Assembly (NCBI GenBank): GCA_031082125.1
Contig: JAVHLM010000042.1
Location: 1 to 51,352 of the forward strand
Source of the DNA: Candidatus Eremiobacterota bacterium
GTDB lineage: Bacteria; Vulcanimicrobiota; CADAWZ01; Ess09-12
Length of the DNA stretch: 51,352 nt
Direction of reading: 5' to 3'
Shown here: positions 34,220 through 40,359 of the stretch, one piece after another
Layout: every line of letters begins with the position of its first letter
Numbering within the stretch: the stretch's first letter is position 1
The notes under the pieces: generated by a model
Seen by the model: the letters and a program-made list of their open reading frames with translations, nothing else
Told to the model about the DNA's origin: nothing
The model's database searches: none
Program-made: the position numbers and the translations under genes

Positions 34220-35137
34220 ATGAAGGCTGGGACACTGCAAGACTGGGCGGCCCTTGCGCGCCTCCCCTTTCACACCGTGGGCGTTTTCCCCTTTATCCTG
34301 GGCTCAGTCCTCGCATGGCGCGAAACGGGAGCCTTCAACTGGCCTGTCATTCTCTGGGGGACCCTTGCCGTCATCCTCATCATGGCAGCGACGTATCTCG
34401 CAGGGGAGTACTATGACTACGATGTCGATACCCTTTCCGGGAAGATGGAGAAGAACCGCTTCTCGGGAGGCTCGGGCGTGCTGCAGAAAGGTATCATGCC
34501 CCGCCACTATCCCCTTGTAGCTTCCATAGTCAGCCTTGGCGCCGCGGCGGCGATAGGGATCGTGATCCAGCTCGTATACAGAACCGGCCCCCTCACTATC
34601 CCGATGGGAGCTTTCGGGATAGTCTGCGGCTATTTCTATTCCACCAGGCCCATCAGGTGGTCTGCCCGGGGTGTGGGAGAGATCCTGATAGGGATCTGCT
34701 ATGGGTGGCTCACCGTCGCCACGTCATATTACCTCCAGACGGGTATCATCACTCCTTTCGTCACCCTTGTCTCATTCCCCATAGGCTTTACCATTTTCAA
34801 CGTGATCCTCATCAACGAGTTTCCCGACTATCCCGCCGACATGGAGGACGGGAAAAAAACCCTCGTCGTGCGCTTTGGGAAGGAAAAGTCCGCAGTGTTT
34901 TACATGCTCGCTTCTCTAGGAGCCTGGATATCATATATCCTCATTGCCGTGGCCTGGCCATCGTTTACAGCCCTCTATGCCGGGCTCCCCTTTCTGCTGC
35001 TCTCGGTGGCGACGACCCTCGAGGTGGCAAGAGGAGACTGGCGCCGCAGGGAGAACCTAGAAAGGATATGCGCGAAGACCATCGTGATCAACCTGGGGCT
35101 CTCGGCAGCCCTCATCGCAGCCGCCCTCATCAGGTAG
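34220..35137 (+). CDS. UbiA-family prenyltransferase (MenA-like)
   Basis: 305-residue integral membrane protein with about eight or nine helices. The two Asp-rich substrate motifs of UbiA aromatic prenyltransferases are present: GEYYDYDVDTLSGKMEKNRF near 62-81 and NEFPDYPADMEDGKKTLVVR near 195-214. The second resembles MenA (dihydroxynaphthoate prenyltransferase) and its archaeal relatives more than UbiA proper. The acceptor could be a quinone precursor, or another aromatic or lipid head group. The start is ATG at 34220 behind GGAG. It heads a tight three-gene operon with a radical SAM enzyme and a GT9-methyltransferase fusion; no menaquinone gene is adjacent. Confidence 0.85.
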   Translation: MKAGTLQDWAALARLPFHTVGVFPFILGSVLAWRETGAFNWPVILWGTLAVILIMAATYLAGEYYDYDVDTLSGKMEKNRFSGGSGVLQKGIMPRHYPLVASIVSLGAAAAIGIVIQLVYRTGPLTIPMGAFGIVCGYFYSTRPIRWSARGVGEILIGICYGWLTVATSYYLQTGIITPFVTLVSFPIGFTIFNVILINEFPDYPADMEDGKKTLVVRFGKEKSAVFYMLASLGAWISYILIAVAWPSFTALYAGLPFLLLSVATTLEVARGDWRRRENLERICAKTIVINLGLSAALIAAALIR

Positions 35138-35187
35138 GGAAGGTTGGCCCCCGCAGGGCCCTCCCCCTTTACCTGCCCCCCACCCTC

Positions 35188-36351
35188 GTGCTCCGGCAGC
35201 TCGGGAGCGCTCTCCTTCTCGCCCGCACGACGGGCTGGCGGGGACTTCCCAGGTGGATCGCCTCGGGGGGGGTGCGCACCCTCCCGGTGGCGGCAGGAGC
35301 TTATGGCATGGGCTGCATCGGCTACCCTGCCCACCCTGTGTGGGAGATAACGACAGCCTGCAACTCACGGTGCATCCATTGCCATGCCTCATCGGGTGAG
35401 CCCATGGAAGGGGAGCTCACCACCGCGGAGGGACTGGCCCTCATCGACGAGATCGTGAAAGTCCGCGAGTTCAGGATGCTCGTGTTCACGGGGGGAGAGC
35501 CCCTTGTGAGGAGCGATCTGCTGGAGCTCTGCCGTTACGGTACGAGGCGGGGACTTTCAATCGTCATCGCGAGCAACGGGATGCTTCTTGACAGGGGTAA
35601 GGCCCGGGAGCTCAGGAAGGCCGGTGTGCGGGGGATGGCAATAAGCCTGGACTCCTGCGATGCCGAAGTGCACAACCACATAAGGAGCCTTCCCGATGCC
35701 TATGACAGGGCCCTCGAGGGGATGGCCCACGCGAAAAAGGAGGCGATGGTCCTCCAGGTGAATTTTACCGCCACGAGGCACAACCTGGGCGATCTTGAGA
35801 GGACCATCGCCATGGTGTCCACCCTTGGCGCCGATATCATGCTTGTCTACCAGCTCGTGGAGGTGGGCCGCGGGAGCGCTCTCGGATCACTCGCACTCTC
35901 AAAGGAGGAAAACAGGCAGGTGGGAGAGATCATAAAGAAAGCCCAGAAGAAAGCCCTCATGGTCATAGAACCTGTCGCATCGCCGCAGTACTGGCCTCTC
36001 CTTCTTGACGGGCGGGGAGAACCCTCCCCGGGGAAGCTGCGCCTGGCCCGGCCCTTTTTCCATGGATGCACCGCGGGGAGGGGCTTTGTATATATAAAGG
36101 CTGACGGGGAAGTGTGGCCCTGCCCCTTTGTGGAAGTCTCAGCAGGCAACGTAAGGGAGAGACCCTTTCACGAAATCTGGCGCCAGGCGTCCCTTTTCAG
36201 GGACCTTCGCTCAAGAAAGCTCCTGAAAGGCCGCTGTGGGGAGTGCACAATGCATGAGATATGTGGAGGCTGCCGCGGGAGGGCCCATGCCGCCACCGGT
36301 GACTACATGGCCGAGGATCCCCACTGCTATTTCCTGGAAAAAGAGGAGTAA
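35188..36351 (+). CDS. Radical SAM/SPASM-domain enzyme
   Basis: About 387 residues. The [4Fe-4S]-SAM motif is TTACNSRCIHCHASSG (CxxxCxxC near 58-65), followed by VFTGGEPLVRSDLLELC. The C-terminal SPASM-like region has cysteines in HGCTAGRG, EVWPCPFVEVSAGNV and KGRCGECTMHEICGGCRGRA, ending near a last HCYF, enough for one or two auxiliary clusters. Relatives modify peptides or tailor cofactors (PqqE, NirJ and AhbD groups); the substrate here is unknown. The start is uncertain. GTG 35188 is the best in-frame candidate, but it has no clear ribosome site, and ATG 35305 is another. The gene begins almost at the UbiA stop and ends 4 bp before the GT9 fusion. Confidence 0.85.
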   Translation: MLRQLGSALLLARTTGWRGLPRWIASGGVRTLPVAAGAYGMGCIGYPAHPVWEITTACNSRCIHCHASSGEPMEGELTTAEGLALIDEIVKVREFRMLVFTGGEPLVRSDLLELCRYGTRRGLSIVIASNGMLLDRGKARELRKAGVRGMAISLDSCDAEVHNHIRSLPDAYDRALEGMAHAKKEAMVLQVNFTATRHNLGDLERTIAMVSTLGADIMLVYQLVEVGRGSALGSLALSKEENRQVGEIIKKAQKKALMVIEPVASPQYWPLLLDGRGEPSPGKLRLARPFFHGCTAGRGFVYIKADGEVWPCPFVEVSAGNVRERPFHEIWRQASLFRDLRSRKLLKGRCGECTMHEICGGCRGRAHAATGDYMAEDPHCYFLEKEE

Positions 36352-36355
36352 TCGC

Positions 36356-38284
36356 ATGTATCTGCTCATAGCTCCCAGGGGGACACATGAGAAGGGGAAC
36401 TTTTATGGCCACCAGGTTATCGATGGCAAGGTCCTGGTCTTCAAGCAGTACTGGTGGCACCTCTTCAGGCGGCTGGGGTGGAGAGACATCACGCCACCCG
36501 GATGGGGCGGGAGAAGCACCAGGCCTGCCGGCCTGAAGAAGGTGCTTCATATACACCACAGCGCATTTGGCGATATGCTCTTTCTTACACCCCTGTTCAA
36601 AGCCCTTGCAGAAAAATATCCAGGCATCACTCAGGCAGTGTTGACGGGCAGGAAGGGCGCCATGGTTCTTGAGGGCAATCCCTGGGTGTCAGAGGTAAGG
36701 ATTGACAAAGACTTGCCCGATCGTGATGAAATTCCACAGATCGATGACATTGTGCAACTCGATGAAATTGAGCACTATGATGACATCATCAACTACGACG
36801 GCATGGTCACCATATTCCCCGAGTGCGAGCTGACGAATGTCTATGATGTCTCTGCAGAATGGGCGGGGATTGAGCTTGAGAATCACCAGAAGAAGCCCGA
36901 AATGCACTTTCTTGATCATGAGCAGGCTGGTGCCGATGCGCTTCTTGCCTCGTGGGGAATCAGGCCCGGCGACAGGTATGTCATGATGCAGTATGATGCC
37001 TCGTCGAATGTGCGCACTATCCCCCTTATGACCCTTCTTGACCTTGCAGAGAGGATAGCGGCAGACGGCTACAAGGTGATTCTTTTCGGTGGCGGCGACC
37101 TGGCAAGGAAAGTGATCTACAGATGCAGCGCATGCGGCAGGAGAAATCTCGCCAGGCCGGCAGAGAGAATCAGGGAGATTAAGGTTAACTGCCCCTGCGG
37201 GGTAAGGGCCGAGGTACAGCAGGGGTACAACGGCAGCCATGAACTCTTTTTCATTGATCCCGAGAAGGTGACCATCAGGACCACCGCGCTTCTTATCAGA
37301 GAGGCTGCGGCTCTTGTCGGCCCTGATTCATGCGGGATACACCTGGCGGCGTGCTTTGAAAAGCCTTCCCTGGGGATTTTCTATAGCTTTGACGGTGATC
37401 TCAGGATGAGATATTACCGGAATGCACGGTGCATGCAGGTTGATGTGCCCTGCGGACCCTGTTTCCAGCATGGAAAGAGACGGTGCAGGTACCACGACAT
37501 CTCAGGATTTTCGCGGTGCCTGGAAAAGCTGACCGCAGAATCCATCTATCAGGAATTCGCCTCGATGATGAGGGGTGAGCAAAGCCCCATGGCCCTTCCC
37601 TTTGTCCCCCCTCCGGCGCGGCCATGCCCGGTCTGCACCTCGGGGTCACGCTATTATATCTGCAGGAAGAAGACCGTCTGCTACTATGAATGCTCTCAAT
37701 GCGGGGCATTTTATACTGACAGGGAGGTCGAGGAGCCGGCACAAAGAGTTGAAAACTCCCCTGATAAATCTCTTCTCATGGGTATCGAGCGCAGGCTCAG
37801 GAGAATAGGCAAGCTCCTCCACGAGAAATTTTTCGGGCCCGGCGCCCGCGCCCTTGAGGTCGGGACCGGCGCAGGGCACACCCTCGATGAGCTGCAGCGC
37901 CGGGGATGGGAGACTGAGGGAATTGACCGCGCAACTTTTCTCGATTTCCGCACGGAGAAGCACTATACCCTTCTCTGGATGAACAAGGTCTTCGAGCGCT
38001 TCCATCATCCTCGTGAGGTGTTCCGCCACGCCTTCGAAATCCTTGTGGAAGGCGGGGTTTTCGCCATGCAGGTCACCGATGGCGGCGAGTGGAGAGAGGA
38101 CCGGTTCAGGTCGCGCTGGGGCGGTATCAATGCCTCCTATGCCGGAGAATATTCGGTCATTCCCGATGAAGGGTCCCTGAGATTCCTGAGCGGGCACTCG
38201 GGCTTTGAATATCTGGGGAGAGAGGCGATGAGCGAGCCCGGCTTCCTGTTCATAGCATTCAGAAAGGAAACGGGTGCGGGATGA
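36356..38284 (+). CDS. Fusion: GT9 (heptosyltransferase-like) glycosyltransferase - zinc ribbon - SAM methyltransferase
   Basis: 642 residues. The N-terminal domain (about 58-410) is a family 9 glycosyltransferase, as in LPS heptosyltransferases: KVLHIHHSAFGDMLFLTPLF, KYPGITQAVLTGRKG, VILFGGGDLA and VGPDSCGIHLAACFEKPSLG. Inside it, near 256-278, a four-cysteine ribbon is inserted (YRCSACGRRN, VNCPCG). A second ribbon near 423-449 (RPCPVCTSGS, YYECSQCGAFY) opens a C-terminal methyltransferase with motif I LEVGTGAGHTLDEL near 500 and ALEV/FHHPREV features of the Methyltransf_23 type. It probably builds and methylates a surface glycan (inference). The start is ATG at 36356, 7 nt after GAGGAG. 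Confidence 0.8.
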   Translation: MYLLIAPRGTHEKGNFYGHQVIDGKVLVFKQYWWHLFRRLGWRDITPPGWGGRSTRPAGLKKVLHIHHSAFGDMLFLTPLFKALAEKYPGITQAVLTGRKGAMVLEGNPWVSEVRIDKDLPDRDEIPQIDDIVQLDEIEHYDDIINYDGMVTIFPECELTNVYDVSAEWAGIELENHQKKPEMHFLDHEQAGADALLASWGIRPGDRYVMMQYDASSNVRTIPLMTLLDLAERIAADGYKVILFGGGDLARKVIYRCSACGRRNLARPAERIREIKVNCPCGVRAEVQQGYNGSHELFFIDPEKVTIRTTALLIREAAALVGPDSCGIHLAACFEKPSLGIFYSFDGDLRMRYYRNARCMQVDVPCGPCFQHGKRRCRYHDISGFSRCLEKLTAESIYQEFASMMRGEQSPMALPFVPPPARPCPVCTSGSRYYICRKKTVCYYECSQCGAFYTDREVEEPAQRVENSPDKSLLMGIERRLRRIGKLLHEKFFGPGARALEVGTGAGHTLDELQRRGWETEGIDRATFLDFRTEKHYTLLWMNKVFERFHHPREVFRHAFEILVEGGVFAMQVTDGGEWREDRFRSRWGGINASYAGEYSVIPDEGSLRFLSGHSGFEYLGREAMSEPGFLFIAFRKETGAG

Positions 38285-38287
38285 TGG

Positions 38288-39346
38288 TTATTTCCCCCCG
38301 CAGGCCTTCAGGCATGCTATCACCTTCGTGAGGCCGCTGTCCTGTGCGAGTGCCATGGGGGTCTTCCCTTTGCCGTTGCGGGCATTTGGGTCGGCGCCCG
38401 CTTTTATCAGAAGCTCCACTGTTCTGCAGATACCTTCCTCGCTCTGAACGGCTGACGAGCCTACCGCGCAGTGGAGCGGCGTGTCCCCGTCGGTATCGCG
38501 CGCCTTCACCTCGGCCCCTTTTGCCACCAGAAGGCTGACCTTGTCAATATTGCCGCCGGAGCATGCAGTATGAAGAGGGGTGACATTCAATTTGGCCTTC
38601 GAGCTCACCTTTGCGCCTGCCTCTATAAGTATCTCTGCGCACTCCATGCCGCCGCTGTCATGAAAGGTGCACATATGAAGGGGCGTCATCCCTTCCCTGT
38701 CCTGCGCGTTCACCTCAGCGCCCCTGGCGATAAGCAGGCGGGCCTCCTCGGCATCATTGGAGCGGGCCGCGAAATGGAGGGGGCTCCAGCCGTTCCTGTC
38801 CTTTTCCTGGATGTCGGCGCCGCTTTCGAGGAGGAGCGCCAGTACCTCCTTGTGGCCGTGGGCGGCATTATGGAGGGGCGTCTGGCCGTACTTGCCCCGC
38901 GCTTTCATGTTCGCGCCTCCTGAGATAAGGGCCGCTGCGGCCTCCCTGTTTCCCTCCGACGCCGCAAGGTGAAGGGGAGTCGTGCTGAACTCGTAATCCT
39001 TCGCGTGAACGTCGGCGCCTTTTGAGATAAGGAGCTTTATTACTGCTGCCTTTCCCTTCATTGAGGCGTAGTGGAGCGCCGTGGCGCCGTACCGGTTTTT
39101 CGCTTTCACGTCGGCTCCGAGGCTTATCAGATAGAGGGCTGTCTCATCCTTCCCGCGGCCTATTGCCAGGATCAGAGGAGTGGCGCCCTCGCGGTCCCGG
39201 GCGTTGAGAAGGCCCGGGTCTTTCTTCAGGAGGGCCTTCACCCCGGCAAGATCGCCCTTTTCCGCGGCATCGTGAATGGGGGCGGAAAAGACCGCTCCCG
39301 CAATGATGATGACAAAAACCATTGAAAAGATAAGGATTCTCTGCAT
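38288..39346 (-). CDS. Exported ankyrin-repeat protein
   Basis: 352 residues. An N-terminal signal peptide (MQRILIFSMVFVIIIAGAVFS) is followed by about ten ankyrin repeats from residue 22 to the end. Examples are GATPLILAIGRGKDETALYL, TTPLHLAASEGNREAAAALI, WSPLHFAARSNDAEEARLLI and DTPLHCAVGSSAVQSEEGIC. The whole mature protein is repeats, so it should be a periplasmic or secreted binding scaffold. The start is ATG at 39346 behind GGGAGGT; the longer open frame to 39535 lacks a site and would destroy the signal peptide. It is convergent with the GT9 fusion, ending 3 bp from it. Confidence 0.88.
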   Translation of the reverse strand: MQRILIFSMVFVIIIAGAVFSAPIHDAAEKGDLAGVKALLKKDPGLLNARDREGATPLILAIGRGKDETALYLISLGADVKAKNRYGATALHYASMKGKAAVIKLLISKGADVHAKDYEFSTTPLHLAASEGNREAAAALISGGANMKARGKYGQTPLHNAAHGHKEVLALLLESGADIQEKDRNGWSPLHFAARSNDAEEARLLIARGAEVNAQDREGMTPLHMCTFHDSGGMECAEILIEAGAKVSSKAKLNVTPLHTACSGGNIDKVSLLVAKGAEVKARDTDGDTPLHCAVGSSAVQSEEGICRTVELLIKAGADPNARNGKGKTPMALAQDSGLTKVIACLKACGGK

Positions 39347-39410
39347 TCCAACCTCCCTGCCATTGAACTTCTGAGGGGCTGCGGGTCCTGCAGCTTTCCT
39401 CACGGTTTCC

Positions 39411-39440
39411 ATTGTAGCAGAAAAGGGGGCACTGCCGCAA
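39411..39440 (-). promoter_or_regulatory. Probable promoter of the ankyrin gene
   Basis: On the minus strand TTGCGG (39440-39435), an 18-nt spacer and TACAAT (39416-39411) lie about 65 nt before the ATG at 39346. The -10 box is good and the -35 box is partial. Confidence 0.45.
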
Positions 39441-39531
39441 TACTGCCGCCGCGGAGGGGGATGGGAATCACCTCCGCGGCATAGGCGATTCGCGCGATGG
39501 CACCAGAGCTTCTCAGCGCTCGTCAGCGCCG

Positions 39532-40359
39532 TCACGACATTCTCTGCGGCACTATCAAGTGCTCCCTCACGTAGTTGCGGATGCCGCGCCGCACTTCTTC
39601 GGGCACCCGCTCATCAAAGCGCATCTTCCCGCCCGACAGGCTCACAAGGCCGCAGAGCCCTGGCGTTTCCTGCAGGATCAGCAGCAGGCTCTGGAAGATC
39701 TCGTCATCAAGGGCCTGCCCGGGATTTTCGCAGACCTCCCATTGATAATCACCTGATTCCTGCCCGGGGTAATCACTGAATCCGCGGAGAAGAAGGCTCA
39801 GGGGAAAGGTGAAATACAGGCTTTTCACATTTCCATTGTCTTCAGAAGGGAGGGCAGAGTAGCGCTTCCAGGCCCTGGAAAGCTCGCGGGGCTCGGGCGA
39901 GTTCTGCTGGCCGGGCCCATCGCAGTTGACAAGGGCGACGATAGTCTTCACCACTTCAGGGACCGGGAGCAGGTGGCGGTCATTATCCAGCTTTACCGGC
40001 TTTTTGCCGCTGAGGAAAACGCCTCTGCCGCACCCGGGGCAGGGCTGCCCTATCAGTTCCGTGAGGGATTTTACTTCCGTGCTTCCGCATGAGGGGCAGG
40101 CGCGGGGGTCACGGGCGAGATCAAGGCTCACCATGGTGAGGCACCTGAGGCAGGCGCAGCGCTCCGCAAAGCCGGCCTTGCCGGCTTCCACCGCCTTCGA
40201 ATAAGGGAGGCCCGTTATCCTGAAGACCTCCTGAATCTCACCGGGATGGGGGCACACGACAGGGGTGCCGGCCTTATCAAGGGCATAGAGGTATCCCCTT
40301 CCTCCCGGGGGGAGGGAAAAATCGCACGTGTCACAGAAGAACTCTTCGAATACCGGCAT
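39532..40359 (-). CDS. Zinc-ribbon protein of unknown function
   Basis: 275 residues, no signal peptide. The first 115 residues hold many cysteines: FFCDTCDFSLPPG (Cys9, Cys12), VVCPHPGE, ERCACLRCLTM, RACPSCGSTEV and QPCPGCGRGVF, enough for two or three zinc ribbons or knuckles. The second half (about 120-275) is a different, mixed domain (YFTFPLSLLLRGFSDYPGQE, PEEVRRGIRNYVREHLI) with no motif I can name. Metal binding is a safe inference; nucleic-acid or protein binding is only possible. The ATG at 40359 follows GGGGAT. It is co-directional with the repeat protein upstream, 108 bp away. Confidence 0.65.
   Translation of the reverse strand: MPVFEEFFCDTCDFSLPPGGRGYLYALDKAGTPVVCPHPGEIQEVFRITGLPYSKAVEAGKAGFAERCACLRCLTMVSLDLARDPRACPSCGSTEVKSLTELIGQPCPGCGRGVFLSGKKPVKLDNDRHLLPVPEVVKTIVALVNCDGPGQQNSPEPRELSRAWKRYSALPSEDNGNVKSLYFTFPLSLLLRGFSDYPGQESGDYQWEVCENPGQALDDEIFQSLLLILQETPGLCGLVSLSGGKMRFDERVPEEVRRGIRNYVREHLIVPQRMS

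Follow-up and report, generated by a model that had tools for sequence, protein, structure and literature searches.

Does a single gene in the 51,352-nucleotide stretch of DNA analysed here (the window) join a glycosyltransferase of family 9 (GT9) to a methyltransferase, and do the cysteine clusters of its product set it apart from other GT9 enzymes?

Gene organization and the paralogous copy

Positions 36356-38284 of the forward strand form one uninterrupted frame of 642 codons with an ATG start, which lies four bases after the stop codon (36349-36351) of the upstream radical SAM gene. The GT9 domain spans residues ~61-405 and is followed by a class I SAM methyltransferase domain at residues 495-637 (Table 1). 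The N-terminal extension (residues 1-60) has no match in Pfam, shares 50% identity with the corresponding part of a paralogue and appears as low-confidence strands in the AlphaFold2 model.

Table 1. Coordinates of the fusion gene, its modules and its upstream neighbours in the window
Feature	Position	Strand	Basis
UbiA-family prenyltransferase, upstream, same direction	34220..35137	+	Pfam, profile match
Radical SAM/SPASM protein, heme-biosynthesis AhbD/NirJ-like, start uncertain	35308..36351	+	Pfam, profile match
Shine-Dalgarno-like AAGAGGAG, overlapping the end of the radical SAM gene	36341..36348	+	Read from sequence
Whole ORF, 642 aa, GT9 domain and ribbon-methyltransferase	36356..38284	+	Frame, Pfam
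N-terminal extension, residues 1-60	36356..36535	+	
GT9 N-lobe, residues 61-200	36536..36955	+	Alignment
Insert between C-lobe strands 2 and 3, residues 254-302, ribbon C257/C260/C279/C281	37115..37261	+	Alignment, AlphaFold2
GT9 C-lobe after the insert, residues 303-362, D324-S325 and H329 (DSxxxH)	37262..37441	+	Pfam, alignment
C366/C369/C377/C388, common GT9 C-terminal Cys cluster, TibC iron-finger position	37451..37519	+	Alignment, PMC4358343
Methyltransferase ribbon, residues 419-455, C424/C427/C446/C449	37610..37720	+	Alignment
Class I SAM methyltransferase domain, residues 495-637, motif I EVGTGAG, D524	37838..38266	+	Pfam, alignment, fold match
Junction D524/R525, 21 paralogue residues absent	37925..37930	+	Alignment, models

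The paralogue is a full-length protein of 663 residues encoded on another contig of the same genome (G000:C1:58021-60009), with 47% identity to the window protein end to end and an identical module order. By region, the identity is 58% for the GT9 C-lobe, 54% for the methyltransferase and 35% for the ribbon insert. All 12 cluster cysteines are kept in both copies, including the eight named in the first-pass annotation, which had made its ribbons depend on their conservation. C359 and C442, which lie outside the clusters, are also common to both copies, and none of the nine cysteine columns found in one copy alone is conserved. The AlphaFold2 models of the window protein and the paralogue are of moderate confidence, with a mean pLDDT of 72.9 and 73.9, respectively.

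Both domains of the window protein score above their Pfam gathering thresholds and the paralogue has the same layout, bearing out the fusion of GT9 and methyltransferase in one chain that was claimed at first pass. The alternative that two genes were merged through an assembly error, as raised there, or through a sequencing error now carries virtually no weight. Although searches beyond this genome recovered no other full-length relative, a mis-join is excluded because the independent full-length paralogue on another contig has its modules in the same order; in addition, the third-position GC stays high throughout the ORF.

Across 148-149 genomes of the phylum, the search yielded no third full-length member. 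Pattern scans over ~85,000 genomes (two scans of genome_contigs and one of viral_contigs) and tblastn against plasmids and phages recovered no full-length relative either; as the pattern scans demand an exact short match, and would thus miss distant relatives, these results do not establish that the architecture is rare outside the phylum. None of seven long GT9 frames examined in the phylum contains a methyltransferase domain; one of them has a GT2 domain. A GT2-GT9 fusion protein is encoded in another genome of the phylum (L071, 91-2361, forward strand). The literature, as far as searched, describes no GT9-methyltransferase fusion. Overall, the architecture is real and so far rare, and is assembled from known modules.

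The GT9 domain and its cysteine clusters

The Pfam family Glyco_transf_9 (PF01075) matches residues 304-376 with an E-value of 7e-9 and 35.8 bits against a gathering threshold of 22, and scores 40.2 bits in the paralogue. This match covers the GT9 C-lobe alone, the N-lobe being divergent. Structural similarity search with the first half of the protein using Foldseek gave the heptosyltransferase WaaF as the best match (1psw, E 4e-12), followed by GT9 3tov and WaaC, with TibC lower; against the heptosyltransferase equivalog models, the window protein scores far under the cut-off. By alignment, D73 (36572-36574) corresponds to the D/E of the GDxxxxTP motif, that is, the catalytic-base position, for which D110 of TibC serves as the reference (PMC4358343). 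A non-catalytic scaffold, as the GT9-like PnsB1 appears to be in the plant NDH complex, would also agree with the divergent N-lobe, and PnsB1 (9grx, 7wff) is among the nearest structures by Foldseek and phmmer. However, the GDxxxxTP acid and the DSxxxH motif (D73, D324, S325 and H329) are kept in both copies, as is R220, and both WaaF and 3tov outscore PnsB1; we consider a scaffold role decidedly improbable.

The C-lobe contains a four-Cys ribbon with the spacing C257-x2-C260-x18-C279-x-C281, located in a 62-residue loop that joins strands 2 and 3. The initial alignment set the GT9 sequences against eleven further GT9 proteins of the genome and the phylum; the comparison was then widened to 77 distinct GT9-profile ORFs, among them both proteins themselves, a truncated paralogue duplicate and several poorly aligned ORFs. 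In the other aligned GT9 proteins of the phylum, the same loop has at most 41 residues, mostly 22-29, and at most two cysteines, whereas the 62-residue four-Cys form occurs only in the window protein and the paralogue among the 77 ORFs. The C257-C281 ribbon is therefore unusual, and the claim of a four-Cys ribbon inside the GT9 fold holds. In the AlphaFold2 models, the insert consists of four short strands with the cysteine pairs at both turns, resembling a zinc ribbon, with pLDDT values of ~76-87 in the paralogue and ~64-76 in the window protein. The window insert also weakly matches DUF1922 (PF09082; E 0.0018, 18.9 bits against a curated cut-off of 30), which we take to be a zinc ribbon; this match is not seen with the insert of the paralogue. 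Apart from its cysteines, of which all four are kept, the insert belongs to the less conserved parts of the protein. This inserted ribbon is the new element of the architecture.

The protein has two further cysteine clusters. The cluster C366/C369/C377/C388 sits at a C-terminal position where 44 of the 77 GT9-profile ORFs have at least three cysteines, and matches by position the four-Cys iron finger of TibC (Cys 339, 342, 358 and 370), a metal site tied to assembly and substrate recognition (PMC4358343); in the window protein, the metal at this site is putative. The cluster C424/C427/C446/C449 aligns with the N-terminal ribbon (C-x2-C ... C-x2-C) of stand-alone Methyltransf_23 proteins, one of which is encoded on contig C6 of the same genome. 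The first-pass account of the ribbons is accordingly only partly sustained. Both sets of cysteines that it reported exist, but the clusters number three, C366-C388 having been missed. Its second ribbon does lie between the domains, but is the ordinary N-terminal ribbon of Methyltransf_23, whose presence in stand-alone enzymes rules out a special linker. The novelty that it saw in ribbons within a GT9 enzyme stands for the C257-C281 insertion among the GT9 proteins of the phylum, but is tempered by the four-Cys iron finger already present in TibC (PMC4358343).

The tip of the TibC thumb (F265 and V266) lies 35 residues past K230 (PMC4358343), and C257 of the window protein lies 37 residues past R220. 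Judged from residue spacing and strand order rather than superposition, the inserted ribbon is apparently at the position of the TibC thumb. Membership in the TibC family was ruled out, as the Aah/TibC model (NCBIfam TIGR04414) matches neither the window protein, nor the paralogue, nor anything else in the genome, and no partner with the autotransporter beta-domain (PF03797) was found in the genome.

The methyltransferase half

Methyltransf_23 matches residues 479-589 of the window protein (E 2.5e-13, 50.5 bits against a gathering threshold of 27). Structural similarity search with the second half returned the sugar C-3'-methyltransferases KijD1, MtmC and TcaB9. Compared to the paralogue, the window copy lacks 21 residues at the junction of D524 and R525; in the model of the paralogue, these residues form helix B and strand 3, leaving the Rossmann core of the window copy incomplete. 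Since these two elements are absent, the methyltransferase activity of the window copy is doubtful, and methylation by it may be weak or lost.

It follows that the window copy might be a glycosyltransferase with a degenerate methyltransferase half of structural or regulatory use, the paralogue alone being truly bifunctional, a reading that we regard as an even bet. The 21-residue segment is present in the aligned stand-alone methyltransferases as well as in the paralogue, which reaches 79.6 bits for Methyltransf_23, and the TM-scores to methyltransferase structures are lower for the window copy than for the paralogue. On the other hand, motif I (EVGTGAG) is intact, as is the acidic D524 that follows strand 2, and the rest of the domain is about as conserved between the copies as the GT9 C-lobe.

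Gene neighbourhood and proposed function

The radical SAM/SPASM gene upstream is closest to heme-biosynthesis models, yet stays below their cut-offs. In a second genome of the phylum (L106), the UbiA and radical SAM genes (34220-36351 in the window) likewise lie side by side, there preceded by a gene reading as uroporphyrinogen-III methyltransferase/synthase, an arrangement suggestive of a connection with heme or quinones. L106 yielded no full-length relative of the GT9-methyltransferase protein, and the neighbours of the paralogue are different ones, namely a C10 peptidase gene and a lipoprotein gene whose product reads as von Willebrand A-like. A functional tie between the fusion and the UbiA and radical SAM genes was thus rejected, their link being one of position. 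The peptidase (L052, 10331-12223, forward strand) is of the C10 family (streptopain-like), has a carboxypeptidase regulatory-like domain and is divergent from the paralogue. Directly after the fusion gene and convergent with it lies a gene for an ankyrin-repeat protein (38288-39535, reverse strand), and positions 39532-40359 on the same strand encode a Cys-rich protein of 275 residues that has several CxxC pairs and scores above the cut-off with no Pfam family. No obvious glycan genes are among the neighbours of either copy. As these neighbours differ and none is glycan-like, they say little on function.

Elsewhere in the genome, RfaE domain II (ADP-heptose synthase) is found on contig C13 with 204 bits against a cut-off of 181.5. 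The region G000:C13:7834-18427, which contains three GT9 genes besides the ADP-heptose synthase domain, is probably an LPS-core cluster. Judging from RfaE domain II, the organism can probably make ADP-heptose.

We propose, with a probability of roughly 55%, that the window protein is a two-domain cytoplasmic glycan-modifying enzyme that combines GT9 sugar transfer with a tethered ribbon-methyltransferase and uses the inserted ribbon for contacts. The GT9 part, with its predicted GT-B fold, would pass a sugar on to an acceptor, with ADP-heptose as a possible donor of heptose; by analogy with WaaC and TibC, D73 would act as the base, and R220, D324 and H329 would bind the donor. The tethered methyltransferase is predicted to be of the sugar type and to modify either that same glycan or one next to it. 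All three Cys4 sites would be structural metal sites, of which the C-terminal GT9 cluster and the methyltransferase ribbon would each have arrived with its own module. That one chain both adds a sugar and methylates, as put forward at first pass, is only a possibility, and the intact paralogue is a stronger candidate for such a bifunctional enzyme than the window protein.

Rather than taking part in catalysis, the inserted ribbon most likely makes contacts between subunits, between domains or with the acceptor, because the lengthened loop is apparently the one that bears the oligomerising thumb of TibC. Zinc ribbons often bind nucleic acid or partner proteins, and the poor conservation of the insert beyond its cysteines (35% identity) would also fit a ribbon that targets the enzyme in this way and takes no part in its own assembly. 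Against this, the gene has no nucleic-acid context and nothing specific speaks for targeting, so that we hold this role unlikely. Taking the contact role a step further, the two proteins could represent a novel family of bifunctional GT9-methyltransferases, with the inserted zinc ribbon in place of the oligomerising thumb of TibC and with sugar transfer and methylation carried out within one metal-stabilised assembly; this is speculative, and we would not expect it to hold. If true, a second, independent C-lobe metal ribbon together with a methyltransferase would represent another route for building GT9-like assemblies, with sugar transfer coupled to methylation in the same way. With the methyltransferase intact in the paralogue and shortened in the window copy, the two diverged proteins of this genome offer themselves as a natural pair for such a test.

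Among known systems, the GT9 heptosyltransferases WaaF/RfaF, WaaC and 3tov share the GT-B fold and the GDxxxxTP and DSxxxH motifs with the window protein, which differs from them in the 62-residue Cys4 loop, the N-terminal extension and the fused methyltransferase. Similar to the window protein, the zinc-ribbon Methyltransf_23 enzymes have an N-terminal Cys4 ribbon followed by the SAM-binding domain, but the window copy is without helix B and strand 3. KijD1, MtmC and TcaB9 possess an extra C-terminal domain, whereas the chain of the window protein stops after the SAM domain. The zinc beta-ribbon of DUF1922 has a CxxCG...CxCG-like pattern in common with the window insert; however, the ribbon of the window protein sits inserted within another domain. 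Moreover, TibC and AAH (BAHT) resemble the window protein in the GT9-like fold, the N-terminal extra domain and the four cysteines at the C-terminal position (a putative metal site in the window protein), as well as in a C-lobe insertion at a similar distance from the donor-binding basic residue (K230-F265 compared to R220-C257). The thumb of TibC is a beta-hairpin used for the dodecamer, whereas the loop of the window protein is predicted to form a metal ribbon instead, and TibC is without the methyltransferase that is fused to the window protein.
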